The position numbers and the translations under genes were made by a program. Positions 5,772 to 24,311 of a stretch of DNA of 64,000 nucleotides are shown piece by piece. Below the pieces are notes generated by a model. The model ran no database searches, was not told where the DNA came from, and worked only from the letters and a program-made list of their open reading frames with translations. Where the stretch lies: NCBI GenBank assembly GCA_020850325.1, contig JADZEW010000001.1:62001-126000 (forward strand). Direction: 5' to 3'. Every line of letters starts with the position of its first letter. Positions within the stretch are counted from its first letter, which is position 1. Source of the DNA: Methanoregulaceae archaeon (GTDB taxonomy: Bacteria > Armatimonadota > Fimbriimonadia > Fimbriimonadales > Fimbriimonadaceae).

Positions 5772-6669
5772 AGTTATGCTCCTCCATCACTGCATCGCCC
5801 CAAAGCCTGAGCTCTAGGTCTGCCAGAACACCGTGCAAACCGCGGACACCGCTGCCCTGCTCCAGTGCGCTGTCAACCACCGTCCACAGCGCGTTCTCAG
5901 AGAAGTCGACTTGGGCACCGAGCGCCTCCGAAAGCGCATCGGCCAGCGCTCGAGCTGGCGATAGTGGGGACTCCAAAATGCGGAACAGGTCTTCCCTCCC
6001 GAGGGGCCGAAAGCCGATGCGATGTCGAATCGTGTCGAGCAGTATGGGAGGAAGTTGCCTATAGATAACGGCAGCGTGGTCGTTGTCCGGGGTCGGAACG
6101 TAGCTGAGGTTTGCCAACCAAAGAAGTCCCGTGAGATCCATCTCCGCCTTCGCCCCACGGTGCCGATAGCTCACCTTTCCAGGGTCACGAAGAACAAGGG
6201 CCAACTCCTCTCGAGCACTCGGCGTGGCATAGAGCAGGTCATCGACCAGAACAACCGCCACCGGTTTCGTCGGGACCTCTCGGTCGTTGTAGAGGTCGAG
6301 GAGGCCTGTGAGAGCACGCGAACGAATTTCATCTCGATGTCCAGCAACCGACGGCAAGTGGACCTCTACCAGAGGGAGGCTGGCCGCCTCGGTTACTTCT
6401 CGAACAGACTCGGTTTTGCCGACCCCGACCGGTCCAAAGAGCAGAACGGGGGGCACTCGCCGGTCAGTCTGGCGACTCCAAATGTAGTGCGCCGCAACCC
6501 CGCGCAGTCGAGCGATGGCCTGCTCTTGGCCTATGACCCGCGAAGCGAAGTTTGGGATTTCTGCGTCAATCCGCAACTCGGTCTGGGCAGTGCTTCGGTA
6601 CGGCTCAGGGAAGCCGTCGTCTTCAAACTGGTAGGTGGTGGACATGGGCGGGGGATCCTTGTTCTTCAC
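5764..6669 (-). CDS. AAA+ ATPase (ClpX/RuvB-like core)
   Basis: 'VIGQEQAIARL', Walker A 'LLFGPVGVGKTESV', Walker B-like 'VVLVDDLLYA'; stop overlaps start of downstream TraG-like gene. Confidence 0.8.
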   Translation of the reverse strand: MKNKDPPPMSTTYQFEDDGFPEPYRSTAQTELRIDAEIPNFASRVIGQEQAIARLRGVAAHYIWSRQTDRRVPPVLLFGPVGVGKTESVREVTEAASLPLVEVHLPSVAGHRDEIRSRALTGLLDLYNDREVPTKPVAVVLVDDLLYATPSAREELALVLRDPGKVSYRHRGAKAEMDLTGLLWLANLSYVPTPDNDHAAVIYRQLPPILLDTIRHRIGFRPLGREDLFRILESPLSPARALADALSEALGAQVDFSENALWTVVDSALEQGSGVRGLHGVLADLELRLWGDAVMEEHNYE

Positions 6670-6695
6670 AGGTGATTTGACCTGCTCTGTAAGTG

Positions 6696-6723
6696 ATTCT
6701 CCGCCGGCACAGGAATGGTTTAC
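6696..6723 (-). promoter_or_regulatory. Motif copy A: GTAAAC-N18-GAAT (putative ECF-type promoter)
   Basis: Minus strand TTGTAAACCATTCCTGTGCCGGCGGAGAATC, upstream of the AAA+ gene, just after the ThiF-like stop. Confidence 0.6.
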
Positions 6724-6738
6724 AAGGACTAGAAGATT

Positions 6739-7791
6739 CTATAGACCCTCGTCTGCGAAGCCATATACCGAGCAGAAGCAGTCTCGGATCAGCCCCGTGG
6801 GAACACTTGACTGACGGATCTCACCGTCTTCGTACACACACCGGATGGCTGTCGATCGAAGCAATCGGCCCGCGACAAGTTCCTCAATCGATCGCAATGC
6901 CCAACTGACGGCCATCATGTTGATGCTTCGGAGACTGCCTAGCCGACCACGCCCAAACTCGCGGCTTTCGTCTGCGATCTGCGCTGTTCTCCGATCGAGT
7001 CCCATCGTGCAAGCTAAGCACCGATCTCCGGGCAAGGAGACGGCGCCCTCAAAGCCGATCAAGGGCTCTTCAGCCGTCCCGAAAACGCCTGTCCCGATCG
7101 AGAGTGTTGGAACGAGGTAACGGCTGCCGATTGCGGCAATGGCTCGACGAGCTCGAGCAGAATCACACGCGGCGACGATAATGTCACAGTCAAGAAACTG
7201 GCTAAACGTGCTGAAGCCTTGGATGTCCCCTTGGATCGTTGTGACACGAACTTCTGGGTTGAGCTCACGGGCGAGCCGGCCGATCACGTCTACCTTTGGC
7301 CTTCCAAAGTCTATGAGTGCGATGGGTTCCGGCCACCGACTTGAATCTGTAGGCCCAAGGATGTCTGGGTCCGCCAGCACCAACTCACACACGCCCTCCA
7401 TAGCCAGGGCCGTTGCGAGATTCGAGCCTAGTCCTCCGACTCCGGCGATACCAACTCGCAGCCGACTCAGCTTCGACCAAGGAAGCAAGCCCAAACCTCC
7501 GGCTTGGCGGCTCCGCTCAACACCAACGAGAACAGGTTCAACTACCGTCCAATCAGGAACAAGAGCGATCTCACCGACCTCCGGACCATCCGGAAGCTGA
7601 ACCTTTAATGGCGCACCATCGCTGCCCAGCACAAAGTTTGCAGGCTGACCGTCCGCCGACGGCGTAAGGACAAGGAGGTCACCGAGCGGAGTGCGGGTGA
7701 CTCCCCGCCGCCACAAGGACGGCGGGGAGGTCAGGAACGACAAGGCGGGAACTCGAACTCGCATCGCAGTCATCTCAGTGCTGAGTGGCAA
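6739..7791 (-). CDS. ThiF/E1-like adenylyltransferase fold protein
   Basis: 'LRVGIAGVGGLGSNLATALAMEGVCELVLADPD' Rossmann nucleotide-binding motif, 'CDIIVAACDSARARRAI', 'CLAC'; true start may be downstream of 7791 because a hairpin lies at 7703-7727. Confidence 0.85.
   Translation of the reverse strand: MPLSTEMTAMRVRVPALSFLTSPPSLWRRGVTRTPLGDLLVLTPSADGQPANFVLGSDGAPLKVQLPDGPEVGEIALVPDWTVVEPVLVGVERSRQAGGLGLLPWSKLSRLRVGIAGVGGLGSNLATALAMEGVCELVLADPDILGPTDSSRWPEPIALIDFGRPKVDVIGRLARELNPEVRVTTIQGDIQGFSTFSQFLDCDIIVAACDSARARRAIAAIGSRYLVPTLSIGTGVFGTAEEPLIGFEGAVSLPGDRCLACTMGLDRRTAQIADESREFGRGRLGSLRSINMMAVSWALRSIEELVAGRLLRSTAIRCVYEDGEIRQSSVPTGLIRDCFCSVYGFADEGL
7703..7727 (-). terminator. Hairpin ccccgccg-N9-cggcgggg downstream of small-protein gene copy 1
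   Basis: 8-bp stem, 48 nt after the stop of the small gene; similar hairpins at 15028-15052 and 24855-24880; no U-tract. Confidence 0.4.
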
Positions 7792-8032
7792 GAGTCTGGA
7801 GTCCGACTACAAACTCGTGCACATCAAGCGTCGTCACCTGCTCCCTTCGCGAAACGAGCGGCAAGGTGATGGCGCGGTCAAGCCACTGATCGAACGACGC
7901 TTCGCTCCGACAGATCGCGGCACACACGTAGTCGATGCCGAAACGGTCTGCCAACCTCTCAAGCGCACCCTTTCGAGCAGCGTTCACTCGCCCCAGATAT
8001 TCGAGAGCATACAACCAAAGATCACGGTTCAT
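7775..8032 (-). CDS. Small helical protein family, copy 1 (unknown; adaptor-like)
   Basis: RBS AAGGAGG before ATG; 'MNRDLWLYALEYLGRVNAARKGALERLADRFGIDYVCAAICRSEASFDQWLDRAITLPLVSRRE' paralogous to 15091-15363. Confidence 0.75.
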   Translation of the reverse strand: MNRDLWLYALEYLGRVNAARKGALERLADRFGIDYVCAAICRSEASFDQWLDRAITLPLVSRREQVTTLDVHEFVVGLQTLATQH

Positions 8033-8077
8033 CTTTCCTCCTTCGATTCCCCTCATTTGCATGCGGGGTGTTAGGAG

Positions 8078-8385: not shown

Positions 8386-11300
8386 TCAAGTGCAACCCGT
8401 TCCCGCCGGCACGTATTCATAGATAAAGGGTCCCTCACCTTCCTTAAACACAGCAATGAGCCGCGACACTTCCTCTTCGGCAAGAACGACTGACGGCGCA
8501 CCAATCCAGTCAAGTACCACTGGCGCCTGATTCGAAGAAATACGCATTAGATACCCAAAGCTGGTATAGCACACCCCATTTAGGCTCAACTCCGGATACT
8601 CTCCAAAGCTACCCACGTTCGGAAGCTCGATTCTACCAGTCATCCGACCGCAACCGTCGAACACCGCAAGTTGTCCCTTGCTACTACCCACTGCAAGACT
8701 TCCGTCGTCCAGCACCATGCTAGAATTGATAACTCCTTCTAACTTTTTCTGCAAATGCCCTCTTTCACCGAGATCCATGGGCACGCCCATTGTGTCGAAT
8801 ATCGTTACACTGCCTTCCGAAGTCACAGATGCAACACGTCCAGCCTCAAGCGCAACAAGGCGTTGAAACAACTTGCAAGTTACACTCGGAGTTCTAGTCC
8901 TATTTGCATCAAACGGACTTCCACTCTGGTCGAACACTGCGACAACTCCCCTAGTTGTAGCAACAGCAAAACGGCCCTGTTCCAGATCGATCATCGAACA
9001 CACGCACCCTTCAACAATCGGCTCTTGCGTCCTCTTGGGCTCGACTGGGCTGCCACAGTTCTCAAAGACTGAGACCACTCCAAGGTCGGTCCCAACAGCA
9101 AACCGCTCTTGATTGATCGAGACAATCCTCGTAACCGTGCCCGCAACCCTCACTTCGCTTGCTGGCAGCCCAATAGGCTTTGCCAGTTGATCAAACACAT
9201 GAACGGAGCCTGAATCGGTAAGAATCACAAAGTGGCCCTGAGCCAGAGGACTTATCACAACAGGTCTCCCTGGGATGCTTGGATCGACAGTTTTGGATGC
9301 GTCCAATGGCAAACCATCTTTGCTAAAACCTGCAACAATGCCTTCATCTGTGCAAACAGCGAAGCACCCATTTTCAAGCGGTACTATCTTTACAACGCAT
9401 CCGACAACGCGCACCTCCCGGGATTCTGACCGTTGTAGCTGCGTGCCGTCATCTTGGAATACAGCAACAGCGCCTGTTTCCGTGCCAACTGCGAACAAGT
9501 TTGGACTGATTGGAGTCATTGACCAGATCATGCCATCTAAGCTCCTTCGATCAGACGGCACTGCTTTCTCTGACATCTTAGAGGTGTCAACCACAATGAC
9601 CATCCCCTCATCTGTGATTGCTACGACTCGCCCTAAATCTAGCGCCCCAAGCCACTGGACACCTCCTCTCACTCGCAATACTTGTTTTAGCTGGTAGTGG
9701 CTCGTCTCAGATTGACAATCGAACAACGCTACATCGCCAGATGTCGTTCCTACCACGAAGCGACGCTCGGAGATCAACTTAAGAGCCCAGATCCACCCGT
9801 CGCTTAAGTCCCAGTATCTTGTCTCATAGTTACTACCCTGTGCCCTGTTACATTTAAACACGGCGATTAGACCTAAGGAATCGCCAACTACAAAGTTCTC
9901 CTGATCGAGCAAATGTAGTTCTGATGGCCAATCACGCCAACTTGGATCTGTCGTCTTCGATTGATCAGTTGGAACTCCGTCGATATCAAAGACGGCCACC
10001 ACCCCGGAATCGGTACTAACGACGAAATGTTTCCCAGCGAGCGCAAGCATTGAACAGACCTTTCCAACAACACTTGTCGTATGCGTCTTAGCTGGATCAA
10101 CTGGTGCTCCGTCGATATCGAAGACCGCGACCACACCTTCATTCGTGCAAACGGCGAAGCGCCCATTCTCTAGCACGACGACTTCCCTGACCGCACCGTA
10201 TACACTCGCCACATGCGTCTTGGCAGTATCAACAGGCTCCCCGTCTCTATCGAAGACCGCTACGACTCCAGCATCCGTGCAAACGGCGAAGCGTCCGTTG
10301 TTGAGGGAGTTGCATTTTGGGAATGATCCTCTGACACTCACATCCTGCGTCTTAGCTTGATCAAGTGGTGCTCCGTTGTTATCGAAAACTGCCACCACGC
10401 CTTCATACGTACAGAGGACGAAGCGTTCGTTATCGATCAAGATGCATGTTGCGGGTGATCCGACAACACTCGCCTCCTGCGTCTTAGCTGGATCAACTGG
10501 TGCTCCGTCGCTATCGAAGACTGCAACCACACCTTCATTCGTACAAACTGCGAAGCGCCCATTCTCTAGCACGACGGCTTCTCTGACCGCACCGTATACA
10601 CTCGCCTCATGCGTCTTGGCAGTGTCAACAGGCTCCCCGTCTCTATCGAAGACCGCTACGACTCCAGCATCCGTGCAAACGGCGAAGCGTCCGTGAACGA
10701 GGGGTACTACAAGACCGACTTTTCCTCTTACACTCGTTTCTTGAGTCTTTGTGTAGTCAACTGGCAATCCATTGTTGTCGAATACAGCCACTACACCCGC
10801 ATCAGTGGCAACGATGAAGAAACCATGATCTAAGATAGAAAAGCAGGATGCTTCCCCTTTACATAACGCTGTGACGCGGTATTGCGGATGTGCGACTGTC
10901 CGCTCTCCACGCCGTATGACCCGTTCTTCTCTTCGAAACTCCAGCCGGCGGCGGGCCGATACAGAAACAGGCAATAGGCCGGCGTGGTTTGCGGCAAGGA
11001 TCAGTGGGCTCACGCCAACCAGCCGATGCTCAGCTGTAGCATCCAGCCAGTCGCACAATGTCTCAACTTCCTCGATTAGAGCCGCATCGGTGCTCAGGGC
11101 TCTCAGGTGCTGCATGAGCACAATGAGGTTCCGGCGTGCTCCCGATACAACAACTTCATGAACCCACCCCGACCAGAAGTCGGCGTCACCAATGATGACC
11201 CGAATCGCGTCTTGCGCCTTGGCCAAGAGAGGACAGGCCCTGTTGGGATCGACATTCATCAGACTTTGAATGTGCTCAAGGTGTCTAAGAACATGGTCCA

Positions 11301-13443
11301 TGAGGTAGCGCGCATCGTAGCGATCGACCCCGACGGCATCTTCCCAGCGATAGTGTTCATCGTTGGCTCGCTTCTGGATGTGCTTGTTCGCCTTTTCAAG
11401 CACGCACGCCTCGATGGCCGAGATCTGCTCTTGGAGACCCTCGACTTGTTCGAACGCCTCTCGAAGGGCGGGATGGCCCAGGTCGTAGACCACGGAGCGC
11501 GCCCGGGCATCGCTCTGGGTTCCAGGGTCGAGACTCAAGTCCGAAGCTCGGGTTTCCAGCACCCACCGCTGAACGGGCTCGCCTGCCTTCGCCAATGGAC
11601 CTGGTTTGAGGTTTCTTGGCAGGCGGTCCAGCCATGCCTGGTCGATCGCGCCCCGAGCCGCGACGATAGCTGGAATCCACTTCCAGCCAGCCGTTCGCTT
11701 CATTGACCGCCATTCAGCGCGGACGAGGTCAACGAGGCTCTTGGGCAAGTCCTCAACCCGCTCAAGCAGCGACCGGGACGGCTCAGTAGCGGTCTGAAGT
11801 TGGCCGAGCAAGCGGTCGGTGAAGAGCGGATAACCTTCCGTTCGGTCCCACAAAGCTTGAGTGACTGCGCCGAGTTCCACTTCGGGAAGCTCTGCGTGCT
11901 CTAGCGCTGACCCAATCCAGTGATCAAACGGGGGACGCGCGAGGTTCGCAAGCGAGTAGTAGTGGCAAGGACGCGGGTGGGAATTGGGACCCACGATGGG
12001 GACAATCGGCAGTCGCTCAGCAACCTGGGAACCTGTTCCCCGCACGCCCAGAAGCACGGTGACTTGCTTCGATATCTCCCAAGTCCAGATACCTTGAGGA
12101 TCCACGGACGCCTCGTCCACGCCGTCGATGACGACCACGATCCGCTTGCCTTCATAATCGCGGACGAAGTCTCTGAGCGTTGTAGACTCCTCGCCAATCC
12201 CCTCAGCATGGAGCTGCGCGAGAAGAGCCTGATGGATACGATCCCAATCAGAAGTGGCCGGCTCGCGCTGACTAATGTTGAAGCGAGCGACGGCAGCGTC
12301 GCCCCAGTCGTGGTTCACGAGTTCACCGATGAAGCTGGACTTGCCGACACCTGCTGGGCCGTGAACGACGATAAGCCCACCCGACCCCTGCTCGCGCACG
12401 AGGCATTGGACGTTTTCGACATCCTCTTCTCGACCAAACACCTTTCGGCAGCGTCCCGCTTGCACACGCAAAGAGGATTTGTAGGCAGCCTCGATCTGGG
12501 GGTCAGTGCTGAGAACCGGAGGCGGCACTGGATTCGTCGCTAACCTCCACGCCTCATCACGCGAACTGAACAGCTTGCACTTCTTGGTGTCAACGTTGTC
12601 GGGAAGCCGGTCGGCGAGGTAGTGCCTGGCCATTATGCCCTGTGACCAATCCGTAAATGCTTCGTGCTTAGCAGTTACCTCTGCGACCGACTCGGTCTCT
12701 CCCTTTACGATCGCCCCAGTTGCGCAAACAGTATGTAGGTCAGCGGGATGATGTTCATAGAAAGCGCGAAATGCGAGAAAGGCTGCCACCCCGACCGAAG
12801 GTCCATCCACCCACGCCGTTGCATCGGGAAAATGATCGGGTTTCCATACACTCTCCAGCGACCAAGCAACTCCTTCAGGTCCTGCGTCTCCGAGCGGCTT
12901 TGCAGCTTGACATGCTTCCTTGAGTGCTTCAAGAAAGCTTCGGCCGACATGGGTGCTCAGCAATGAGTGAGGGTTGTCGGGATGGTTGACTAATGGAGCC
13001 ATCACCACGACACCGGGAGTATCGGGCAGTGCGTAGAGTTTGAGCCGGAGGATTGCCGCCTGTGAGTTTGCGAACACGACCGGAAAGTGAATACTGACGC
13101 TTGGACGCTGAATTTGGTCGGTCAGAGCCGCCAACCACGCTGATTTTCGGGCGACGGGTTCGTCCCCAAGCTGTACGGGGAGATCGACCTTCTCCGCCAA
13201 AGCGGCCGCGAGTGTCACCGCTCTGGCCTCAGCTTCGATATCGACAGGCAGGCTCTGTCTTGCGTTCAAGACTTGGTAGGCACGCTCACTCGCCAACGAA
13301 ATGCAATGCTGCAACCAAGGGTAGTTCCCATGTTGCCCAAGAGGCACGTCAAAGCCAAACATCGGCAACTTGACCAGATTTTCCAGGGTCTGTCCACCCT
13401 CGACGGGCGCCAGCACTTTCTCAAGCCACTCTTTCGGCCTCAT
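8386..13443 (-). CDS. Lon-like (S16) protease domain + STAND-type NTPase + C-terminal beta-propeller repeat protein
   Basis: 'VDGPSVGVAAFLAFRAFYEHH..CATGAIVKG..SVAEVTAKHEAF..LPDNVDTKKCKLFSSRDEAWRLA' matches the Lon C-terminal protease layout (Ser and Lys retained); Walker A 'VVHGPAGVGKSSF'; 'RIVVVIDGVDEAS'; then ~43-aa repeats 'NGRFAVCTDAGVVAVFDRDGEPVDTAKTH'. ORF begins 13500 but ATG at 13443 (MRPKEWLEKVLAP) matches the paralog start. Confidence 0.8.
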   Translation of the reverse strand: MRPKEWLEKVLAPVEGGQTLENLVKLPMFGFDVPLGQHGNYPWLQHCISLASERAYQVLNARQSLPVDIEAEARAVTLAAALAEKVDLPVQLGDEPVARKSAWLAALTDQIQRPSVSIHFPVVFANSQAAILRLKLYALPDTPGVVVMAPLVNHPDNPHSLLSTHVGRSFLEALKEACQAAKPLGDAGPEGVAWSLESVWKPDHFPDATAWVDGPSVGVAAFLAFRAFYEHHPADLHTVCATGAIVKGETESVAEVTAKHEAFTDWSQGIMARHYLADRLPDNVDTKKCKLFSSRDEAWRLATNPVPPPVLSTDPQIEAAYKSSLRVQAGRCRKVFGREEDVENVQCLVREQGSGGLIVVHGPAGVGKSSFIGELVNHDWGDAAVARFNISQREPATSDWDRIHQALLAQLHAEGIGEESTTLRDFVRDYEGKRIVVVIDGVDEASVDPQGIWTWEISKQVTVLLGVRGTGSQVAERLPIVPIVGPNSHPRPCHYYSLANLARPPFDHWIGSALEHAELPEVELGAVTQALWDRTEGYPLFTDRLLGQLQTATEPSRSLLERVEDLPKSLVDLVRAEWRSMKRTAGWKWIPAIVAARGAIDQAWLDRLPRNLKPGPLAKAGEPVQRWVLETRASDLSLDPGTQSDARARSVVYDLGHPALREAFEQVEGLQEQISAIEACVLEKANKHIQKRANDEHYRWEDAVGVDRYDARYLMDHVLRHLEHIQSLMNVDPNRACPLLAKAQDAIRVIIGDADFWSGWVHEVVVSGARRNLIVLMQHLRALSTDAALIEEVETLCDWLDATAEHRLVGVSPLILAANHAGLLPVSVSARRRLEFRREERVIRRGERTVAHPQYRVTALCKGEASCFSILDHGFFIVATDAGVVAVFDNNGLPVDYTKTQETSVRGKVGLVVPLVHGRFAVCTDAGVVAVFDRDGEPVDTAKTHEASVYGAVREAVVLENGRFAVCTNEGVVAVFDSDGAPVDPAKTQEASVVGSPATCILIDNERFVLCTYEGVVAVFDNNGAPLDQAKTQDVSVRGSFPKCNSLNNGRFAVCTDAGVVAVFDRDGEPVDTAKTHVASVYGAVREVVVLENGRFAVCTNEGVVAVFDIDGAPVDPAKTHTTSVVGKVCSMLALAGKHFVVSTDSGVVAVFDIDGVPTDQSKTTDPSWRDWPSELHLLDQENFVVGDSLGLIAVFKCNRAQGSNYETRYWDLSDGWIWALKLISERRFVVGTTSGDVALFDCQSETSHYQLKQVLRVRGGVQWLGALDLGRVVAITDEGMVIVVDTSKMSEKAVPSDRRSLDGMIWSMTPISPNLFAVGTETGAVAVFQDDGTQLQRSESREVRVVGCVVKIVPLENGCFAVCTDEGIVAGFSKDGLPLDASKTVDPSIPGRPVVISPLAQGHFVILTDSGSVHVFDQLAKPIGLPASEVRVAGTVTRIVSINQERFAVGTDLGVVSVFENCGSPVEPKRTQEPIVEGCVCSMIDLEQGRFAVATTRGVVAVFDQSGSPFDANRTRTPSVTCKLFQRLVALEAGRVASVTSEGSVTIFDTMGVPMDLGERGHLQKKLEGVINSSMVLDDGSLAVGSSKGQLAVFDGCGRMTGRIELPNVGSFGEYPELSLNGVCYTSFGYLMRISSNQAPVVLDWIGAPSVVLAEEEVSRLIAVFKEGEGPFIYEYVPAGTGCT
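8400..10890 (-). repeat. Coding ~129-bp propeller repeats, some nearly identical at DNA level
   Basis: For example ~10160-10300 and ~10560-10696 differ at only a few positions over ~140 bp. Confidence 0.85.
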
Positions 13444-13457
13444 CTTTGATGCCCTTT

Positions 13458-13742
13458 CTACCAGAATATCCGCCGCCCCGGAGAGCCATTCCAAGCACAC
13501 TCACCCACAACTGGGCATCGTTTCGCATGCTCCCCGCCTTGTTCAATCATCGCGACGACTCCCTGACTGGTTCCAACTGGAAAGCATTGCCGTGACTGCA
13601 CCGTACGCGCTAGGCATGTACACTGGCTTTGAGGCAGAGGCTTGCCTCGAGCGACAAACACCCCGACGATTCTGTGGCTCGACCCAACCGCGGAGCCATC
13701 GCCAAACGGAACCATGGTCCCGACCCAACCTTCCACGCTAGG
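13458..13742 (-). pseudogene. Frameshifted beta-propeller repeat remnant
   Basis: Two reading frames carry fragments: 'EGWVGTMVPFGDGSAVGSS' then 'YGAVTAMLSSWNQSGS' / 'FPVGTSQGVVAMIEQGG', matching repeats of the adjacent propeller gene. Confidence 0.7.
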
Positions 13743-15005
13743 CTATTCCGTTTGGTCCTGCGCCAAATGCTGGTGATCGGCACCAAACGCCTCGACGAGT
13801 CCCTCACTGGTCCCAATCGCGAAGCCACCGCCAAGCGCGACCATTGAGGTGACCTCACCATGCAGGCGACACATGCTTCCCGCCAAAGGCTGGCCAACTT
13901 TTCCAAACGCCTCAACGTATCCCTCACTGGTCCCAATCGCGAAGCCATCGGCAATCGCCACCATTGAGGTGACCCAACTTTCTACGCTGGGTTCGTGCGT
14001 TTTGGCACCAGGCAGCGGCTGACCATCAGCACTAAACAGCGCGACGACACCATGGCTCGTTCCAACAGCAAAGCTATCGCCCAGTGGTAGCATCGCCGTG
14101 ACCCAACCTTCCACGCTGGGTGTATGCGTTTTGGCACCAGGGACCGGCCGGCCATCGGCACCAAACAACACGACGATTCCCTCGGTTGTACCAACCACAA
14201 ATCCACTGCCAAACGGGCGCATCGCGTTGACCGCACCGTACACGCTACCCTCGTACGTTTGGCTTGTCGGCAAGGGCTGCCCATCAGCACCAAACAGCGC
14301 GACGACACCATGGCTCGTTCCAACAGCAAAGCTATCGCCCAGTGGTAGCATCGCCGTTACCGCTCCTTCCACGCTGGGAGCGAGCGTGATGCTCCCTGCA
14401 AGAGGCTGGCCACCTGCACCAAACGACGCGACGATTCCCTCGCTTGTTCCTACCGCAAAGCCATCGCGAAACGGGATACTCGCCTTGACAATACCTCCAA
14501 CGGTATGTTCGTACGTATGACTTAACGGCTGACTGTTAGCACCGAACACAACGACGCCTCCATTGCTCACCGCCACCACGAACCCATCGCCAAACGGAAC
14601 CATCGCGTAGGCCCAACCTTTCACGCTGGGTTCATGGACTTGGCTTCCCGGCAGAGGCTGGCCATCAGATCCGAACGTCGCGACAACTCCCTTGCTTGTC
14701 CCAACGGCAAAACCGACGCCAAGAGGGATCATCGCGATGATCTCACCCTTCACAGCATCATGTCTTGATGAGGAAACCTCTTCGCCTTCGTCATCGAGAA
14801 TGCAGGTCTCACCCAGATCGGTCCCGACTGCACATCCGCCCCCTTTCAAGGTGACGAAATGCTTGACCCGACCTCGAAAAACCGCGGTCGTTCGATAACG
14901 CAGCACCAGGCGCTGGACGTTAGCCTCATCTGCCTCGCGACCAAACTCCGTCTGACCGCCCTCGACAGGCGCAAGCATTTTCTCGAGCCATTCCTTCTTC
15001 TTCAT
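13743..15005 (-). CDS. Propeller-only paralog lacking Lon-like and NTPase domains
   Basis: N-term 'MKKKEWLEKMLAPVEGGQT' equals start of the large protein, then jumps to 'EFGREADEANVQRLVLRY' (large protein 'VFGREEDVENVQCLVRE'), then ~42-aa repeats 'GDSFAVGTSHGVVALFGADGQPLP'. Confidence 0.8.
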   Translation of the reverse strand: MKKKEWLEKMLAPVEGGQTEFGREADEANVQRLVLRYRTTAVFRGRVKHFVTLKGGGCAVGTDLGETCILDDEGEEVSSSRHDAVKGEIIAMIPLGVGFAVGTSKGVVATFGSDGQPLPGSQVHEPSVKGWAYAMVPFGDGFVVAVSNGGVVVFGANSQPLSHTYEHTVGGIVKASIPFRDGFAVGTSEGIVASFGAGGQPLAGSITLAPSVEGAVTAMLPLGDSFAVGTSHGVVALFGADGQPLPTSQTYEGSVYGAVNAMRPFGSGFVVGTTEGIVVLFGADGRPVPGAKTHTPSVEGWVTAMLPLGDSFAVGTSHGVVALFSADGQPLPGAKTHEPSVESWVTSMVAIADGFAIGTSEGYVEAFGKVGQPLAGSMCRLHGEVTSMVALGGGFAIGTSEGLVEAFGADHQHLAQDQTE

Positions 15006-15090: not shown

Positions 15091-15363
15091 TCACACCTGA
15101 GCAGCCAATGTCGCGAGGCCCGTGGCGAACTCGCGCTTACTTACCATCGGATACTTCTTGCGCGAGACCAGGGCAAGCGTCATCGCACGATCCAACCAGA
15201 CATCGAACGACTTCTCCGACTGGGTGCACACTGCCGCGCACACCCAGTCGGCTCCAAACCGATCGACCAGTCTCTGCAGGATGCCCAAACGGTGGGCCTG
15301 CTTCGCCTCGAACACGCGACAGATCGATTCCCATCGCGCCTCACTAATTGTCTTCCTCTTCAT
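15091..15363 (-). CDS. Small helical protein family, copy 2
   Basis: 'MKRKTISEARWESICRVFEAKQAHRLGILQRLVDRFGADWVCAAVCTQSEKSFDVWLDRAMTLALVSRKK'; GGAGG RBS; paralog of 7775-8032. Confidence 0.75.
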   Translation of the reverse strand: MKRKTISEARWESICRVFEAKQAHRLGILQRLVDRFGADWVCAAVCTQSEKSFDVWLDRAMTLALVSRKKYPMVSKREFATGLATLAAQV

Positions 15364-15432: not shown

Positions 15433-15716
15433 AGGGTGGTGAGCAACTTACTGTACTTCGGCAACGCCTTCGAAGATGCAGGTCTCACCCCAAGAGACGC
15501 GGGCCGCACATCCGACCCTTTCAAGGCAACGAAGTGGTCAACCTGACTTCGAAGAACCGTCGTCATATGACAAGGTAGGCGATACACTTTGAGATTGGGC
15601 GGACAACTCGGGTCGCGCTCTCGTCGCCTTCCGCCCGTAGCGACTGGGCAATCCCGGTCGGTAACTACCGAACGGCCGCCCAGATTCACGGTAGACGACC
15701 TTGACGGAGCGAGCAT
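15429..15716 (-). pseudogene. Third, truncated copy of the 'EWLEKMLAP..propeller' gene N-terminus
   Basis: DNA around 15480-15600 aligns by eye to 14790-14900 (gcaggtctcaccc.., ccctttcaaggcaacgaa..acctgacttcgaagaaccgtcgt); upstream 'MLAP' start retained at ~15716. Confidence 0.7.
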
Positions 15717-15756: not shown

Positions 15757-18732
15757 TCACCTGGGGGCTACTAGTCTCGTCGCCCCATTTCCAATCACGG
15801 TGAAGGGCGCCCAGTAGTATGGCGATGTGAAGCGAGGATCGCTTGCGACGGCGCATCGACCGTGCCTAGCCGCGGAGGCGACCGTCTCCCCTTGGAGCAA
15901 CCGCAGGTGGAACTCTTTAGCGAAGAGGAGCGAGGACCCGTCGTTCGCCGGCCACAAGGAAGCAACTACGCACTCTGCGCCAGCGGCGAGGTATGCGTCC
16001 GCTGCACCAAAGGCGGCCCCTGATATGGGTGAATGCCTAACGGTATCACACCCGGTAAGGACCACAACCTTCGCTGTTAGCTCGGCCAAATATACCTCTT
16101 TCGTTAAGAGGAGGTTCGCATCAGCCGACCCATCTCCCAAAACCATATACGAGAGCAATGCGTTTCGGGCAAAGGAGTCGTCCTCATTCAGATGAAGGGT
16201 GCCCGCAGCCGCGTCGCGCGCGCGCTGGCTCGGGCGTAAGGACTCATGGGGGTAGACATGGTGAGTCGCGATGTGGATGATGTCTGCTCTCCCCATCTCC
16301 ATTCGAACTCTCCTCGTGCTCTGCTCTTGGTGCTGTAGATGAACACAAGATGGGTAAAGCGTCGCCACCTCCTCAGCTTCAAGGACGGCCGCGGGAAGCC
16401 GGTCGAGGTGATTGTACATCTCTCCGTGCCGGAACTTAGGGGATATTGCGCTAGGCCGGTAGTGACTAAAGTCAGAAACGCCTATAACAAGCGCCTTCGG
16501 CTCGGATAGCACCGGACGATCCTGTGGTGGCATGAGACCACCGGTTGTTAGATAGATGTCATGAATGAGACCAAGGGGCCCCCTTGCTCTGTCAGAAACG
16601 ACAATCTCCCAGTCATCGGAACATCTGCCGCTTTCCAACAAACTACCCTTGAGAATTGCATTGTAGGGAACATCGCACCAGCTGTCTTCGGGAACGATAA
16701 CTAATGCACTTTCGGGCTTAAGATCACGCAACTGGGGTCCGTCAGGAAGGAGGCGAGACTCGATTTGGGCGTTCCAGCTACGCCACCATCCGTCGATCGT
16801 CCGAAGGTCGTCGGCTGTCAGCGAGGACTGAGTGCGCAGAGCATAGTGCCAAGGGGACTCGATATGACGTCGGATGGTCTCTTGAGACTCATGCATCTCA
16901 GTGACCACTATTCTCGACTGCCCGCTCTGGTAGCGGTGAACCTCTGAATCTTTCGTAGAGATGTCCAGGACCAAGCTGCCCGGTTGACGGTTGGCGACCG
17001 CCTGCAGGGCAGAGGAGCGCCGGAGCGCGAGAATCGTCAACTTTCTCTCAAGGATGCCCATGGCCGTATCGTCGCCTGAATACACGTCAATTAGCGTTTC
17101 CAAGCACTCTTCGGCCCACCGCTTGAGGTACCCGTAAATCTCCAACTCTGCGGTGCCATGGTACCAGTGCTTGGAAAGCTGGGCTAGAGCACTTTCTATG
17201 GGGTCGGGCAGGTAAGCGCTCCTGAGCCAGCGCGCCATCTCAATCTCTATGGACTGAGCGAGCTCGATCCTACGAAGAGGGTTTCTCGTGACAGCCAATT
17301 GCATGATCCCAATCGTCACAATCCGCATGCAGCCATCCACCTGTTCATCCTCCGAGACAGAGGACCGCACGAGGAGCTGCTCAATGAGCGCGAGCAAAGA
17401 GAGATCTAAACCCATCCCCCCATTGCAGAGGGCATGGCGGGCGCGTTTAAGTCCATCCCGCTGGGCAGCCGTGAGTTCAGAGCCCTGACGCCTCAATCTC
17501 AGGGCCCGGAGCACCAGGCAATAGACGCCTTCAGGGCTAAAGCACTTGAGCGCAAAATCGAGCACGAAGATCTGTGTCTTGTGCCAGGAGTCGTCGTCCT
17601 CCTGCATTTGGCCGATCTCCCTCGTCAGCAGATGCTCAAAGGACCGAAAGAAACGGGCGACGGAAAAAGGAACGGAAACCTCGTCTGGCTCGAGACTCTC
17701 TTCTCCTTCGAACAGGGTGACAAGCCCGTATCTTCCGAGGAGGTCAAGGTTGGACAGGGCCTCCTCTTTAAGAAGCTGAATGGTCTGTGCATAAGCATGT
17801 TCGTCTTCAGCGCCTGGGACCCGTCCGAGCGCGAACAAGAACTGGTAGGTGTGCATCTCGTCTCCGACCGCAGCCGCCTGGAGCATGAATCGCAGGAACG
17901 TAGCCGTTTGCAGGGGTAGCTTCGATTCAAGCCTCGGGGCCTGCTCGTAAATGGGTAAGGAGAAGGGATCGAAGAGAAAGTGGCCAGTAGCTTCGATCTT
18001 CTCGCCGCCAGAGCGTTTCGCCAACAAGAGTTCGCGGCCGAAGGCTAACGCGTGCCGATTAACAGTAAGAAGCGACCACAAATGCTGGTGCGGCTTGAGG
18101 TGAGGCTTTAGGGCCTGGATCGGAAGTAGAGACGCCTTGATCAGTAACTTTCGATCTAACTCGGAGTCGGTGAGCCCCGCAATGCAAAGTCGATAGTAGA
18201 CCTCCTCGAACCGATAGACCTCTTGTTCGTCCAGAATGTCTGGCGAACTCCGAATGAGTTCGGCGAGATCCGAAAATGCTTGCGCAAGGTTATAGCCCGG
18301 TAAGAGACCGTGTCGACCAAGAATCGCGGAGAGCAGAACATCGCCCGGCGAAGTTGTGAGAGTTTTGTAACCCACGGAAGGCATGAGAAGTAGCCCTCCT
18401 GATAAAACTGGATCCTGCAAGACAGGGCGCGTGATATCTGGGTCACCGGACGAGGAGAGGAGCCATGCACCGAATGCGATTGAGTTGTGCCGGATCGACT
18501 CACACTTTGACATAGTTTCGCGCGTAATGAATGTGCGGAAGAACTCAGCCTCGTCGTGGCTCTCGGGAAGCACAACACTTAATAGGCTCGACAGATTTAC
18601 GATCCGATCAAAAAGGTCCGGATCCGACATTGGGTCGAACATATGCGCGGCGCAGAGTACGTTGAAGAATGCCCCACTTGTTGGGTTATTGTTATTGGGA
18701 GGTGGGTTATGCATGGACATCAACGTTGTCAA
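15757..18732 (-). CDS. CHAT-domain protease, paralog 1 (helical N-terminal region)
   Basis: C-term 'ADIIHIATHH' ... 'AKVVVLTGCDTVRHSPISGAAFGAADAYLAAGAECVVASLWPANDGSS', consistent with the CHAT His/Cys dyad. Confidence 0.88.
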   Translation of the reverse strand: MTTLMSMHNPPPNNNNPTSGAFFNVLCAAHMFDPMSDPDLFDRIVNLSSLLSVVLPESHDEAEFFRTFITRETMSKCESIRHNSIAFGAWLLSSSGDPDITRPVLQDPVLSGGLLLMPSVGYKTLTTSPGDVLLSAILGRHGLLPGYNLAQAFSDLAELIRSSPDILDEQEVYRFEEVYYRLCIAGLTDSELDRKLLIKASLLPIQALKPHLKPHQHLWSLLTVNRHALAFGRELLLAKRSGGEKIEATGHFLFDPFSLPIYEQAPRLESKLPLQTATFLRFMLQAAAVGDEMHTYQFLFALGRVPGAEDEHAYAQTIQLLKEEALSNLDLLGRYGLVTLFEGEESLEPDEVSVPFSVARFFRSFEHLLTREIGQMQEDDDSWHKTQIFVLDFALKCFSPEGVYCLVLRALRLRRQGSELTAAQRDGLKRARHALCNGGMGLDLSLLALIEQLLVRSSVSEDEQVDGCMRIVTIGIMQLAVTRNPLRRIELAQSIEIEMARWLRSAYLPDPIESALAQLSKHWYHGTAELEIYGYLKRWAEECLETLIDVYSGDDTAMGILERKLTILALRRSSALQAVANRQPGSLVLDISTKDSEVHRYQSGQSRIVVTEMHESQETIRRHIESPWHYALRTQSSLTADDLRTIDGWWRSWNAQIESRLLPDGPQLRDLKPESALVIVPEDSWCDVPYNAILKGSLLESGRCSDDWEIVVSDRARGPLGLIHDIYLTTGGLMPPQDRPVLSEPKALVIGVSDFSHYRPSAISPKFRHGEMYNHLDRLPAAVLEAEEVATLYPSCVHLQHQEQSTRRVRMEMGRADIIHIATHHVYPHESLRPSQRARDAAAGTLHLNEDDSFARNALLSYMVLGDGSADANLLLTKEVYLAELTAKVVVLTGCDTVRHSPISGAAFGAADAYLAAGAECVVASLWPANDGSSLLFAKEFHLRLLQGETVASAARHGRCAVASDPRFTSPYYWAPFTVIGNGATRLVAPR

Positions 18733-18741
18733 GATCGCCGG

Positions 18742-21636
18742 TCAGGATCCCCCTGCGACCAGGCGCGCCATCCCCTTTCCGACAACCGAAAACGGAGCCC
18801 AGTAGTAGGGAGAGCGAAACCGGGGATCGCCGGCGACAGCCTGACGACCAAACCTGGCGGCCCGCGCTACTGTCATGCCCGAAAGGAGGCAGCAGTGGAA
18901 CTCTGTCATGAAGATGAAGGCCGCCTCATCATGGATGGGCCAAAGAGTTGCTACGACGCACTCGGCCCCCGCTGAAAGGTAAGCCCCAGCGGCGGCCAAA
19001 GGTGCCCCATGAACAAACGTCGTCTGGAACGTGCTGCAACCAGACAGCACGACAACCTTCGCCTTCAACTGAGCGAGGTGTACCTCCTTCGTCAAGAGTA
19101 GGTTCAGCCCACCGTCGCGGTCTTCAGCAAAGACCGTGTAGCTGTGGTGCGACAATTGGGCCCTTGCCTCGCCTGCCACAAAGGTCCAGCTCGTGCGGTC
19201 CTGACATCTGCGGTCGCCGAGCCGAATGCCACTCGGCTGTTCATGGTGACTCGCGAAGTGAATGATATCCGCCAACGGCAACTCCATTCGGATGCGTCGG
19301 ATCGTTTGCTCTTGCGGCCGGAGATGGACCGCGCCGTCTCCATAGATTTTTGCAACCCATTCCGCCTCCGCCTCGGCTAGCGGTAGGGGTTGAAGACGGT
19401 CCTCGGGCGGGCGATGCCACAGCATAGGGTCAATCGTGTCGGGGCTCATGTGGGAAAAGTCCGAGACGCCTGCGACAAGCGCCCGTATGGCGGACTCGAC
19501 CGGCGGACTAGGCTCGAGGTCGAATCCTCCCGGTGAGAGGTACAAGTCACGCGAAAGCCCGAGGGCCTCTCCCGTCTCCAAGTCGCGCAGCGCGTTGTAG
19601 GGAACGTCCCACCACTCTTTCTCCGGGGCGACCACGAGGTTCCCTCCTTGCGGCACTAGCTGATGCAGAGCAGTGTCCGGGCAGAGGTATTTACACACCC
19701 TCTGGCCCCACAGGTCCCACCAACCGTCTGGCGCCTTGAGGTCCTCTGGACCCAGGGCGCTTGATCCAACCATCGCGTGCTGCCACGGCGAGTAGATCTC
19801 CGCAGCTACCTCGGGCGATCTCCCGGGGAACCCAAACATCTGCACGTCGGTGGCGGTCACATAACGATGCATGGCTTCGCCAGTTGGGCAAAGATCGAGC
19901 AGGACAGAGCCCTTGTGGCGTTGCACCAATGTTCGCAGGGCAAGGCTCCGTTGGTGCGTCAGCTTGAGGATTTCTGATCGGAGCTGAATCGCCTCCCCTG
20001 GCACCATAGGCTCGCTCCTCAGGTAAGGCAGGACGCTCTCTACGAAAGAGCGTAGCGTCCGGACGAGCCGCTCATCTCCGATCATGAGCCCCCAGTTTTT
20101 AGCTAACTGCTGCAGAAACTGCTTGGTTCCTGGATGCGCGGACATGGTGACCACCCAGTTTTGGAGCGCCTGTTCGACTTCGACCGCGTGCTCGACCTGA
20201 GTAAGGCGGTTCCGAGACAGCGCAAACCGGGCGAGGCGGAGAACCAGGATCCGCATCCATTGGGCCTGTTTCGTCTCAGGATCTGTCTCATCGAGCGTCA
20301 GGAGGAGCTCAAGGTAATCCGCGGCCGCAAGGTCCCACATTCTCAGTCTATGAATCTCCTGGGACTGCGATCGCTGCAAAAGCTGGGCCTGCGCCTCGCC
20401 AATCGGACTACCCTCAAGACGTCCTTTCGTCACCCGAATAAGCTGATCATAAAGACTGTCTTTTTCATTTAGAAGCGCTCGTTCCAAAGTGTCCAGGACA
20501 AGGAGTGCCCGTGCCCTTTGCCTTGGCTGCCATGTCTCCTGTTCTCGGTGAGGAAGGGCCAGTGTCCGCTTCGCCTCACGGAAAAGGCGAATCAAACCGA
20601 ACATGGAAGAGATTCGACCCGGCGGCAACTCACGCTCCACGTCGAAGGTCGGGGTCAAGCCCCAAGTTCCAATAGTGGTGCACCACATCGATGCTTCGAA
20701 GGTGAGCATTTCGACTATCTCAGTTCCGGCGGGGCTGCTCATGTCCGGACTGTAGCCTTTGGCCATGCTCCTCAACTGCCGAAACAACAGCTCATCCCCA
20801 GATCCTGCGGCCCGGACCATGAGCATCACCATTCTAGCGACTCCGCGATCGACTCCAGCGGTGGCCAAATGTTCCTCAAAATAGGGGTGCCATCGACAAT
20901 AGGGGTCGAAGACATACTCTGGCTGCGCATAGACCCGGCCGCCCTCCCCATCCGACACGGCGACGGGTAGGGGCGCCCTGACGAGAAGAGAGCGATGGAT
21001 CGTAAGGAGCGACCAGATCTTTTGGTGAGAGGTGATCTCCGGACGCAGAGCGTCCAGAACAAGACCGGACGCATCCACCGATGCTGGCCACCGATCAGGA
21101 GCCTCATCTATCGCGGCGTCACAAAGTTTCTGAAACACCAACTCAAGGCGGTCGATGTCACGGATGTCAGGGTAGTCCGGAAACTTGGTCACGAACTCCC
21201 TCAGCTCAATGAATGCGTCCTCCGACGAAAAGTCGACTAGTCCGGACTGGCCTGCGATCGCAGCGAGGAGAACGTCACCGGGGGAAGCCTGAAGAAGGCC
21301 AGCACTTACGGGTGGCATCTCATGCTGCGTACCCTGCATCATCTCGGCACTTAGCAGCGCCGCCACAAGATCATCACAGTCACCCCTGACAATCTCTTGC
21401 GTGATCTCGATGGTAAGTCTCCGCAACGGGTCAGCCAAGTGCTTCTTGCTCCGAAGCGCCTCAAACGCACTCGCGTCGCCCTGCGTTTCCGGTACCAATC
21501 CTCCTATTAGGGTTAAGAGATTGACTGCGCGCGCGAGGACGGCAGGGTCACTCGTCGCCATGACAGGACCCAGCACAGCCTTAACCAATGGGTTCCGCTT
21601 CATGACGCGAAGTAAGCTCTCTTCCACTGGAATCAC
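18742..21636 (-). CDS. CHAT-domain protease, paralog 2
   Basis: C-term 'ADIIHFASHHEQ' ... 'AKVVVLSGCSTFQTTFVHGAPLAAAGAYLSAGAECVVATLWPIHDEA'; N-term block 'SPGDVLLAAIAGQSGL' shared with paralog 1. Confidence 0.88.
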   Translation of the reverse strand: MIPVEESLLRVMKRNPLVKAVLGPVMATSDPAVLARAVNLLTLIGGLVPETQGDASAFEALRSKKHLADPLRRLTIEITQEIVRGDCDDLVAALLSAEMMQGTQHEMPPVSAGLLQASPGDVLLAAIAGQSGLVDFSSEDAFIELREFVTKFPDYPDIRDIDRLELVFQKLCDAAIDEAPDRWPASVDASGLVLDALRPEITSHQKIWSLLTIHRSLLVRAPLPVAVSDGEGGRVYAQPEYVFDPYCRWHPYFEEHLATAGVDRGVARMVMLMVRAAGSGDELLFRQLRSMAKGYSPDMSSPAGTEIVEMLTFEASMWCTTIGTWGLTPTFDVERELPPGRISSMFGLIRLFREAKRTLALPHREQETWQPRQRARALLVLDTLERALLNEKDSLYDQLIRVTKGRLEGSPIGEAQAQLLQRSQSQEIHRLRMWDLAAADYLELLLTLDETDPETKQAQWMRILVLRLARFALSRNRLTQVEHAVEVEQALQNWVVTMSAHPGTKQFLQQLAKNWGLMIGDERLVRTLRSFVESVLPYLRSEPMVPGEAIQLRSEILKLTHQRSLALRTLVQRHKGSVLLDLCPTGEAMHRYVTATDVQMFGFPGRSPEVAAEIYSPWQHAMVGSSALGPEDLKAPDGWWDLWGQRVCKYLCPDTALHQLVPQGGNLVVAPEKEWWDVPYNALRDLETGEALGLSRDLYLSPGGFDLEPSPPVESAIRALVAGVSDFSHMSPDTIDPMLWHRPPEDRLQPLPLAEAEAEWVAKIYGDGAVHLRPQEQTIRRIRMELPLADIIHFASHHEQPSGIRLGDRRCQDRTSWTFVAGEARAQLSHHSYTVFAEDRDGGLNLLLTKEVHLAQLKAKVVVLSGCSTFQTTFVHGAPLAAAGAYLSAGAECVVATLWPIHDEAAFIFMTEFHCCLLSGMTVARAARFGRQAVAGDPRFRSPYYWAPFSVVGKGMARLVAGGS

Positions 21637-21959
21637 TCTGTCGATTCGGTCAGGAGGCGGTGGACCAGCCGCAAACGCTCCCTTAGGCTTTGTACTGACT
21701 CATCCAGTCCCGCAAAGTCCCCTAGCCGCCTGTCGACAGCTACCTGGACACTCACAAGCGCCCACTCGGGCAGGACCAACTTAGCGCAGATCTTAGAGAG
21801 CGCTTCCTTGAACTCTTGCTCCGCGTGGCTCGCGCCGCGCGAGGCACTCTCGCCGTTTGCCACTTGGTTTGCGTGGAGGAGTGTTACAAGGCTATCGATC
21901 TCCTCTTCCATGCACGCGATTTCTTTCAAGACGTCGGGGTTAATAGCCAATGAACACAC
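21633..21959 (-). CDS. Small hypothetical protein between the 442-aa gene and the CHAT genes
   Basis: ORF overlapping both neighbours by 4 and 20 nt, consistent with translational coupling. Confidence 0.6.
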   Translation of the reverse strand: MCSLAINPDVLKEIACMEEEIDSLVTLLHANQVANGESASRGASHAEQEFKEALSKICAKLVLPEWALVSVQVAVDRRLGDFAGLDESVQSLRERLRLVHRLLTESTE

Positions 21960-23268
21960 TCCTTAAGGTCTTAACATCTTGTATGAAGTCCAATAGCTCG
22001 AAGTTCGCCCCTTGTGCGGACTGTGCCCGGCTCATTAACAGATCACCCGCGGGTAGATCGCCGAGCCGCCAAGCTAAGCACGCGCCTACGGCGTCACAGA
22101 AGATCTGCGCAGGAGGGAACTTGAGAGCTACCTTATCGCTGAGCGCCCGGGCCCGAATGTATGATCGCTCTGCCGCGCCCAGATCGCCTGCCCGAAGGGC
22201 GGCAAGGCTGTCGGTGGCGAGGAGCCAAGCGGCCAGATCGACCTGCCCTGGCTCTAGCTTGGCCAGCAAGCGCGACAGCTCGTCCCGGACGTGGCTGAGA
22301 GCGGTCATCGCACCAAGCAACTTGCAGATTGCCCTCGCTTCTCCAATCGCGGGACGAGGATCCTTAGCCCACAGGAACGGAACCCCGATCTGGGGCACAG
22401 CCGTAGCTCTCATCCCACCGCGTTGTGCATGCCCGGCAAAAGCAGCACCCGAGGCCTCGATCGCAGCAAGAATCCCGGGGGCGATTATCTCGAGCAACAC
22501 ATCGACTGGGATCGGTGGTGTGCCCGCGAACTCCTCCGCAACGCCGCTAAGCTCCGTCTCCTCATACTGATCTACATAGTACTCGTGGCCCGGTTGAACC
22601 CCAAATCCCACGACGACTGATTCGCCGGTAACGTGAACGGATACCTCGTCAACCTCTTTGCCTTCACACTCGACCTTGACAACCGTGCCAGCATCTGCTC
22701 GAAACGTCAGTTCAAGGTACCAACCCGTGGCTTCTGCAAAAACGTCAGAATGTTGGAGCCGTCCATGGTCGATCACAATGCCAATCGAACCCAAACCGAG
22801 CTTGCCTTCGAGACCAATCTCCATTGCTTGCGAGTCCTTGGCCGCCGCAGCAGCAGCAGCACCCATGGGAATAGGTTGCGCCAGGCGCGACACGAGCTCA
22901 CCGATTCCGAGTTGAAGGCAGTAAGTTGCGTAGACGACAAACCCGTGCCAGTTTTTCAGATAACGGGCGAGTCTCTTCTGGTCATCGGCGCCGAGAGAAG
23001 GAGCCAAAGCTAAGGACGCCTGCAAACCAGCTTCAGCTGCAGATGTGAGCCTAACGTAATCTTCGGGGAGTGGATCGAGGTCAACCCCTTCGAGATTCGC
23101 GATTCGCTCGACGAGCTGATCGTCCATGATCTCGTTGATGACTTCAACCAGGAACGGATCGTCGCCCTTCATGTAGGCCCGAAGATCGTCGTCACTCACC
23201 TCATTCATAAGGTGAATCGTCTTTTGGACCTTCAGTTCTTGTTCATTAGTTAGTTTGATGTGCTTCAC
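21940..23268 (-). CDS. Hypothetical 442-aa protein, candidate sigma regulator (position only)
   Basis: Overlaps sigma gene stop by 4 nt; helical N-term, Ala run 'MGAAAAAAAKD', beta-rich middle, helical repeat-like C-term. Confidence 0.7.
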   Translation of the reverse strand: MKHIKLTNEQELKVQKTIHLMNEVSDDDLRAYMKGDDPFLVEVINEIMDDQLVERIANLEGVDLDPLPEDYVRLTSAAEAGLQASLALAPSLGADDQKRLARYLKNWHGFVVYATYCLQLGIGELVSRLAQPIPMGAAAAAAAKDSQAMEIGLEGKLGLGSIGIVIDHGRLQHSDVFAEATGWYLELTFRADAGTVVKVECEGKEVDEVSVHVTGESVVVGFGVQPGHEYYVDQYEETELSGVAEEFAGTPPIPVDVLLEIIAPGILAAIEASGAAFAGHAQRGGMRATAVPQIGVPFLWAKDPRPAIGEARAICKLLGAMTALSHVRDELSRLLAKLEPGQVDLAAWLLATDSLAALRAGDLGAAERSYIRARALSDKVALKFPPAQIFCDAVGACLAWRLGDLPAGDLLMSRAQSAQGANFELLDFIQDVKTLRSVFIGY

Positions 23269-24311
23269 TTGCTGTTCCTCTTTCCGCCCTTGAAACTATG
23301 AGAGACATCTGTCCGCTTTACCTTGATTCGAGCCTGTGAGACCATTTTTTTGACAGTCGGTTGAGGTCGACTCAAAATTGTCGACGCTTCCACAAGACTG
23401 AGTCCTACAACCTCAACCAATACCCAAGCCCGAAACTGGGGCTTGTTCTCGATCGCTCTGCGCGCATGCCGAACCTTGACTCGTGCCTTAGCAGACGCAT
23501 GTTGAACGATTCGCGCCCGATCAGACGTACGTTCAACGCCTCCAAACGGACGATCCACCCATAACTCTCCAATAGACTCCACTCCAAACGCTACTTCCTC
23601 ACCCAGCCGTCTCTGTACGTTGTCCGGAAGTCCCTGCAAGCTGTTCAAAGCCCAAGCGCTGAACTCGAACTTCTGTTCCATTGCGGCACGTATCTTCTGG
23701 CGAGCGCGATGCAACCAGGACTTTATAGTCCCCTTGTCGCGGTTCAACTTGATTGCGGCCTCATGTTCAGTGAGGTCCTCGACATCGCGAAGCACCCAGA
23801 CGGCGAACTCAGGGGGCGTAAGAACCCGCTCGGCCGTAGCGACGATTGCGCAAACTTGATCCTGCGTTTCCAAATCTGCGAACAGATTCAGCGACTCTGA
23901 GTCTGCTATCTCAGGCGCACCCTCGTCTTCGATCGAACGCGTCGGCATGCGTCCGGGGGCAGCATCTTGGTCCACTTTGTGCCACCAACCCAACCGATCG
24001 TCCCACTCGAACGACCCCTTCAATCTTGGTTTGGACTTGCGACACTTGTTTCTCGCGATCGCAAACACCCACGTCGAGAACTTGTAAGCGGGATCGAACC
24101 GCTTCAAGAATTGGAACGCTGCGACCTTCGTTTCTTGATAAGCGTCCTCCGCGTCAACCACATTTTCCATGGAACGGCAGCAGAACCTGTAGGTTTGTTT
24201 GTCCACCGTACTCCACAATGTGTCAAACGCTGGTCGATCCCCCTTCTGGGCGCTAATGACGAGTGCTTGGACAGTTACTGGGTCAAGTCCGCCTGCTTGC
24301 TGATCGATCAT
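23265..24311 (-). CDS. ECF-like RNA polymerase sigma factor with two region-4-like HTHs
   Basis: Region 2 'DAEDAYQETKVAAFQFLKRFDPAYKFSTWVFAIARNKCR'; region 4 'LTEHEAAIKLNRDKGTIKSWLHRARQKIR'; second HTH-like 'LSLVEASTILSRPQPTVKKMVSQARIKVKR'; RBS GGAGGAAGG. Confidence 0.88.
   Translation of the reverse strand: MIDQQAGGLDPVTVQALVISAQKGDRPAFDTLWSTVDKQTYRFCCRSMENVVDAEDAYQETKVAAFQFLKRFDPAYKFSTWVFAIARNKCRKSKPRLKGSFEWDDRLGWWHKVDQDAAPGRMPTRSIEDEGAPEIADSESLNLFADLETQDQVCAIVATAERVLTPPEFAVWVLRDVEDLTEHEAAIKLNRDKGTIKSWLHRARQKIRAAMEQKFEFSAWALNSLQGLPDNVQRRLGEEVAFGVESIGELWVDRPFGGVERTSDRARIVQHASAKARVKVRHARRAIENKPQFRAWVLVEVVGLSLVEASTILSRPQPTVKKMVSQARIKVKRTDVSHSFKGGKRNSK

Follow-up and report, generated by a model that had tools for sequence, protein, structure and literature searches.

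A propeller-only open reading frame beside a STAND NTPase gene is probably a decaying remnant of a tandem sensor paralog

Introduction

In STAND ATPases that carry repetitive propellers, frameshifts or in-frame stops frequently interrupt the gene, and further blades are found in the flanking non-coding DNA (PMC9218822). Lupas and co-workers connect this disruption of propeller genes with rapid turnover in the innate immunity of prokaryotes (PMC9218822). The WRAP-type or recently amplified STAND propellers (Dunin-Horkawicz 2014, as cited in PMC9218822) were the named system against which the locus described here was compared. As outlined in that citing account, they share with the present locus a STAND ATPase, a C-terminal repetitive propeller, a defence-type setting and recent blade amplification, together with an in-frame stop and blades left in the non-coding flanks. 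Against the same outline, the present locus differs in its N-terminal domain, which is unclassified (possibly Lon-like), in a propeller without a clear WD40 match, and in a truncated copy that has lost both the NTPase and the N-terminal domain by internal deletion.

The NTP-dependent conflict systems (Kaur et al. 2020, PMC7159879; Kaur et al. 2021, PMC8195603) resemble the locus in being multi-gene assemblies of NTPase and protease with propeller components, and in some of them an ECF sigma factor lies beside caspase-type genes. They differ in that no MoxR-vWA pair, TRADD-N or EACC component was identified at the present locus. By word search, the main texts of PMC7159879 and PMC8195603 make no mention of CHAT or Lon.

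Results

Organization of the gene cluster

The window, which is the whole stretch of 64 000 nucleotides that was analysed, belongs to a genome of 3.5 Mb in 41 contigs. A co-directional cluster on the minus strand of the window, running from a sigma factor gene to a gene for a TraG/HerA-type ATPase, includes a long gene encoding a STAND NTPase with a propeller and a short ORF encoding a propeller only (Table 1).

Table 1. Coordinates of the cluster genes, adjoining features and parts of the short gene (positions in the window)
Feature	Position	Strand	Basis or remark
Sigma-70/ECF-type sigma factor	23265..24311	-	Head of cluster
CHAT protein 2	18742..21636	-	PF12770, E=7.7e-31; paralog of CHAT 1
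CHAT (caspase-like) protein 1	15757..18732	-	PF12770, E=1.5e-29
Frameshifted blade 1 region left from a second short-type gene	15456..15578	-	5' of small protein A
Small protein A	15091..15363	-	Paralog of small protein B
Short propeller-only ORF	13743..15005	-	420 aa, ATG start, nine blades at residues 46-420
Conserved 19-codon N-terminus, MKKKEWLEKMLAPVEGGQT	14949..15005	-	DNA match and dN/dS
Vestige of NTPase pre-Walker-A segment (FGRE...NVQ.LV), EFGREADEANVQRLVL	14901..14948	-	DNA score against shuffles
Decayed 3' end: in-frame TAG (13743-13745), blade 10, frame-broken blade 11	13520..13745	-	Blade matches
Long gene: N-terminal domain (1-333), STAND/AAA_16 NTPase (from 334), ~19-blade propeller (from 865)	8386..13443	-	
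Small protein B	7775..8035	-	Paralog of small protein A
ThiF/E1-like protein	6739..7791	-	PF00899, E=2.8e-22; PADLOC E1-E2
AAA gene	5764-6669	-	
TraG/HerA-type ATPase	3807-5771	-	
Type I restriction gene	26391-29747	+	Follows cluster

Two unassigned genes separate the sigma factor from CHAT 2, and a 442-aa protein beside the sigma factor (21940-23268, minus strand) gave no Pfam or NCBIfam match. The two CHAT genes lie in tandem and their products align along nearly the full length at 34% identity; a third CHAT gene is located elsewhere in the genome. Small proteins A and B, both without a significant Pfam match, share 58% identity over 69 aa (E=6e-24) and may possibly be adaptors. One of the two adjoins each sensor-type gene. 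The ThiF/E1-like, AAA and TraG/HerA-type genes (3807-7791, minus strand) follow directly behind the sensor genes. The type I restriction gene on the opposite strand after the cluster suggests a defence-type neighbourhood, and PADLOC and NCBIfam searches of the operon matched no named defence system. The intergenic region between the short ORF and the long gene showed no site resembling a promoter or terminator, therefore the two are probably co-transcribed.

The long gene and its N-terminal domain

The NTPase of the long protein was matched by AAA_16 (E=1.2e-8) and NB-ARC (E=1.4e-5), both above the cut-off, and was assigned as a STAND domain with its Walker A motif. The C-terminal region was assigned as a propeller, with about 19 repeats of 34-46 aa and several propeller Pfam matches. 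The preliminary description of this DNA had called the N-terminal domain Lon-like, a label that was not borne out. A Lon_C profile search of the genome recovered the true Lon with E=3e-85, while the long gene was absent even at E<=10, and Pfam gave no match in residues 1-334. In a check for the Ser-Lys dyad of the Lon fold, the sequence DGPSVG of the long protein aligned with DGPSAG of the Lon of the genome, with a non-significant score that was equalled in 18 of 300 shuffles. AlphaFold modelling of residues 1-348 gave an unusable structure (pLDDT 37). The domain may be a divergent Lon-type protease.

The short ORF shares its N-terminus and upstream DNA with the long gene

Residues 1-19 of the short and long proteins are identical at 16 of 19 positions, as the preliminary description had noticed. 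The pairwise alignment that it had proposed showed this match to be homologous at the DNA level, with 75 of 99 positions shared (76%, E=6e-15) and the match extending 5' of both ATG codons, so that ~50 bp of upstream sequence is common to the two genes. The short gene has an in-frame TGA just 5' of its ATG, and this stop, together with the homology across the ATG, indicates that the long gene likely starts at ATG 13443 and not at GTG 13500. Eight of the 12 differences in the 19 codons fall at third positions. Over this short stretch the rough values of dN and dS were 0.09-0.10 and 1.0-1.7 respectively (NG86 and YN00), and dN/dS between the short and long genes was ~0.05-0.2 for the N-terminal 19 codons and for the segment described below. 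The low ratio for the peptide may reflect either constraint in both genes or a deletion that took place late compared with the duplication.

A vestige of the NTPase marks an internal deletion

Behind the N-terminus, EFGREADEANVQRLV of the short protein aligns to VFGREEDVENVQCLV of the long protein at a collinear site. The DNA of this segment scored 45, the best of 1000 shuffles scoring 36. The protein-level score alone was within the range of shuffles, therefore the homology is argued from the DNA score and collinearity. Over the 16 codons of the segment dN was 0.22 and dS 1.25, rough values from a short stretch. An alternative alignment, of EFGREAD to LEFRREER ahead of the propeller of the long protein, scored 22 versus 47 and was dropped. 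As the Pfam AAA_16 domain begins at long-protein residue 334, which is the site of this match, and the Walker A motif GPAGVGKS follows at residue 362, the segment in the short gene is a vestige of the NTPase. Only ~16 residues preceding the Walker A are retained; the short ORF has no NTPase match in Pfam and was not assigned a STAND NTPase domain. The placement of this segment before the STAND Walker A, as first proposed from the letters of the DNA, was thus upheld at the DNA level.

The first junction is in frame, joining codon 19 to about codon 334 with the loss of ~314 codons. The second falls at some point from long-gene codon 350 up to the first blade, which lies near codon 865; divergence of the flanking sequence precludes an exact placement. 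The loss of the N-terminal part and most of the NTPase with retention of both flanks, which had been described as precise, was supported at the DNA level, and precision applies to the first junction and not to the second. A vestige of this type without a P-loop has no obvious use, and deletion from a long-type ancestor, rather than insertion, is consequently the natural direction. Judged from these alignments, the short ORF derives by deletion from a paralog that lay in tandem with the long gene.

The propellers of the two genes have diverged separately

Propeller repeats follow the vestige, as had been noted, with nine blades before the stop. The blades of the short gene share up to 84% base identity with each other, whereas the best identity between short and long blades was 0.48-0.58, with a dS that is saturated or no lower than about 1.7. 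These data suggest that the two propellers have long been amplified or homogenised separately. By this comparison, the short gene differs from the long gene by more than the absence of two domains. The blades of the short ORF mostly differ with dN < dS. In the long gene, blades 2-7 (9931-10731, minus strand) carry a recent block duplication, with 91% nucleotide identity between L3 and L6 and 83% between L2 and L5.

Decay at the 3' end and an upstream relic

The 420 codons of the short ORF contain no internal stop. The terminating TAG falls where blade 9 ends, on a blade boundary, and behind it blade 10 continues in frame and is followed by blade 11 in a broken frame. The region behind the TAG matches intact blades (DNA, E=2e-13; tblastn, E=2e-15), which indicates that the ancestral short gene was longer. 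The short gene thus has the features of a disrupted propeller gene, namely a frame interrupted by an in-frame stop or frameshift and related blades in the neighbouring non-coding DNA. Blade 10, which lies past the stop, departs from the consensus at six of 23 positions, and blades 3, 8 and 9, before the stop, at 8/25 to 8/26. Blade 10 is therefore no more degenerate than these blades, and selection on the present ORF is inseparable from decay.

The relic of a second short-type gene spans two frames and sits between CHAT 1 and small protein A. It scored 101 against the short gene, with a shuffle maximum of 48, and locally only 32 against the long gene; dN (0.32) and dS (0.48) against the short gene are close to neutral. 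The preliminary description did not mention the in-frame TAG and the blades that follow it, the relic, or the nearly saturated divergence of the blades.

Predicted fold of the nine-blade product

An AlphaFold2 model of the short ORF, generated from a three-row alignment, gave a pLDDT of 83 with nine blades at residues 46-407, although for repeats with so shallow an alignment symmetric closure may be favoured. With VIA-align the best solved structures were Cake10 and Cake9 (Z 34, rmsd 2.5, 339-340 residues), followed by others at Z about 26. Cake9 is nine-bladed, and WRAP and Cake repeats are able to close with differing blade numbers (PMC8458387). The likeness to the designed propellers Cake9/Cake10 and Tako8 is one of structure only, the identity to the short model being 15-16% with no evolutionary relation implied. 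It is plausible from the model that the nine blades of the short ORF close as a ring and yield a foldable product.

Search for relatives

The long gene found NTPase-level or weak partial matches only in 101 genomes of relatives and then in 291 genomes of the phylum. Pattern-based scans of genome contigs gave no relative of the long N-terminus and NTPase and none of the CHAT pair; a scan of viral contigs gave none of the short protein, and plasmids and phages gave no match. Such pattern-based scans detect only close relatives, and failure to find a gene by them is weak evidence of its absence. A ThiF relative in another genome (G002) had unrelated neighbours. Pseudogenisation coupled with a lack of similar pairs had been named beforehand as evidence against a propeller-only paralog; the first half was seen, as 3' decay, and for the second no relatives of either gene were found.

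Discussion

The short ORF is probably a by-product of the birth and decay of STAND-propeller sensors, and a remnant of a tandem paralog of the long gene. This reading is favoured because it brings together the homology of the N-terminus and upstream DNA, the FGRE vestige, the TAG with blades 10-11, the relic, the operon paralogs, the L3/L6 duplication and the published precedent. An old duplication of the full-length gene would have come first, and the two copies would then have amplified their blades independently, as their divergence suggests. Next, an in-frame deletion would have removed the N-terminal domain and almost the entire NTPase from one copy; the vestiges are present in the DNA and the direction is the presumed one. 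A nonsense codon arose at the end of blade 9, and the blades behind it have decayed. If translated, the product would form a ring of nine blades, lacking the NTPase and carrying a short helix at its N-terminus, and most likely its role is not essential, or is transient at best. The setting is a defence-type operon with a sigma factor, two CHAT proteases, the STAND-propeller protein, ThiF/E1 and AAA. Counting against decay are the stop-free frame of 420 codons, the blades with dN < dS, the low dN/dS of the N-terminus and FGRE segment, as if under constraint, the stop at a blade boundary, the ring model and the probable co-transcription.

Several of these observations would also be expected if the short ORF encoded a working propeller-only subunit, which would bind the ligand of the long sensor, one akin to it, or the long protein, and tune the threshold of the long sensor as a dominant-negative or adaptor docking via the common 19-aa N-terminus. 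This alternative, which takes in the sensor decoy and the regulatory subunit of the preliminary description, is possible but rather doubtful. A plausibly foldable nine-blade product is its main support, the model being confident and blade numbers being variable in WRAP and Cake repeats; the ORF is also intact with its original start region and strongly conserved first 19 codons, and lies on the same strand as the long gene with no predicted terminator between them. However, the nonsense codon cost the gene blades 10-11, the N-terminal conservation could be older than the deletion, the state of blade 10 fits selection and decay alike, and no relatives with a recurring arrangement were found in the genomes of relatives, the phylum or the contig scan. 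The more specific proposal of a selected nine-bladed partner that regulates the full-length STAND sensor through a common 19-residue docking peptide is unlikely; if true, the short protein would be the bacterial counterpart of truncated NLR helpers or decoys.

Sequencing or assembly error could be the origin of the lone in-frame TAG, which stands between blade 9 and a blade 10 in the same frame, and the real gene would then extend through blades 10-11. The damaged frame of blade 11 and the independently broken relic require more than one error, however, and this explanation is very improbable. The earlier suggestion that the short gene is a donor of repeat diversity, i.e. a store of blades that recombine into the long gene, agrees with the blade turnover in both genes. 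Exchange would give near-identical tracts, but no short and long blades exceed 58% nucleotide identity and their synonymous divergence is at or near saturation, and such a role is scarcely credible.

Birth and decay of the short gene, as favoured here, follows a known pattern of rapid sensor turnover, on which the internal loss of the N-terminal domain and NTPase is a modest variation. The locus would then offer a legible case of STAND-propeller sensors being duplicated, multiplying their blades anew, shedding catalytic domains and decaying. Should the short protein be produced and act on its long counterpart, the pair would provide a direct test case for the regulation of bacterial immune NTPases by truncated sensor paralogs. 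The paired CHAT genes, the paired small proteins and the sensor copies indicate repeated duplication and decay in the cluster as a whole. Near the cluster end lies a resolvase-type recombinase gene (1999-2685, minus strand, PF00239), which perhaps marks the edge of a mobile element.
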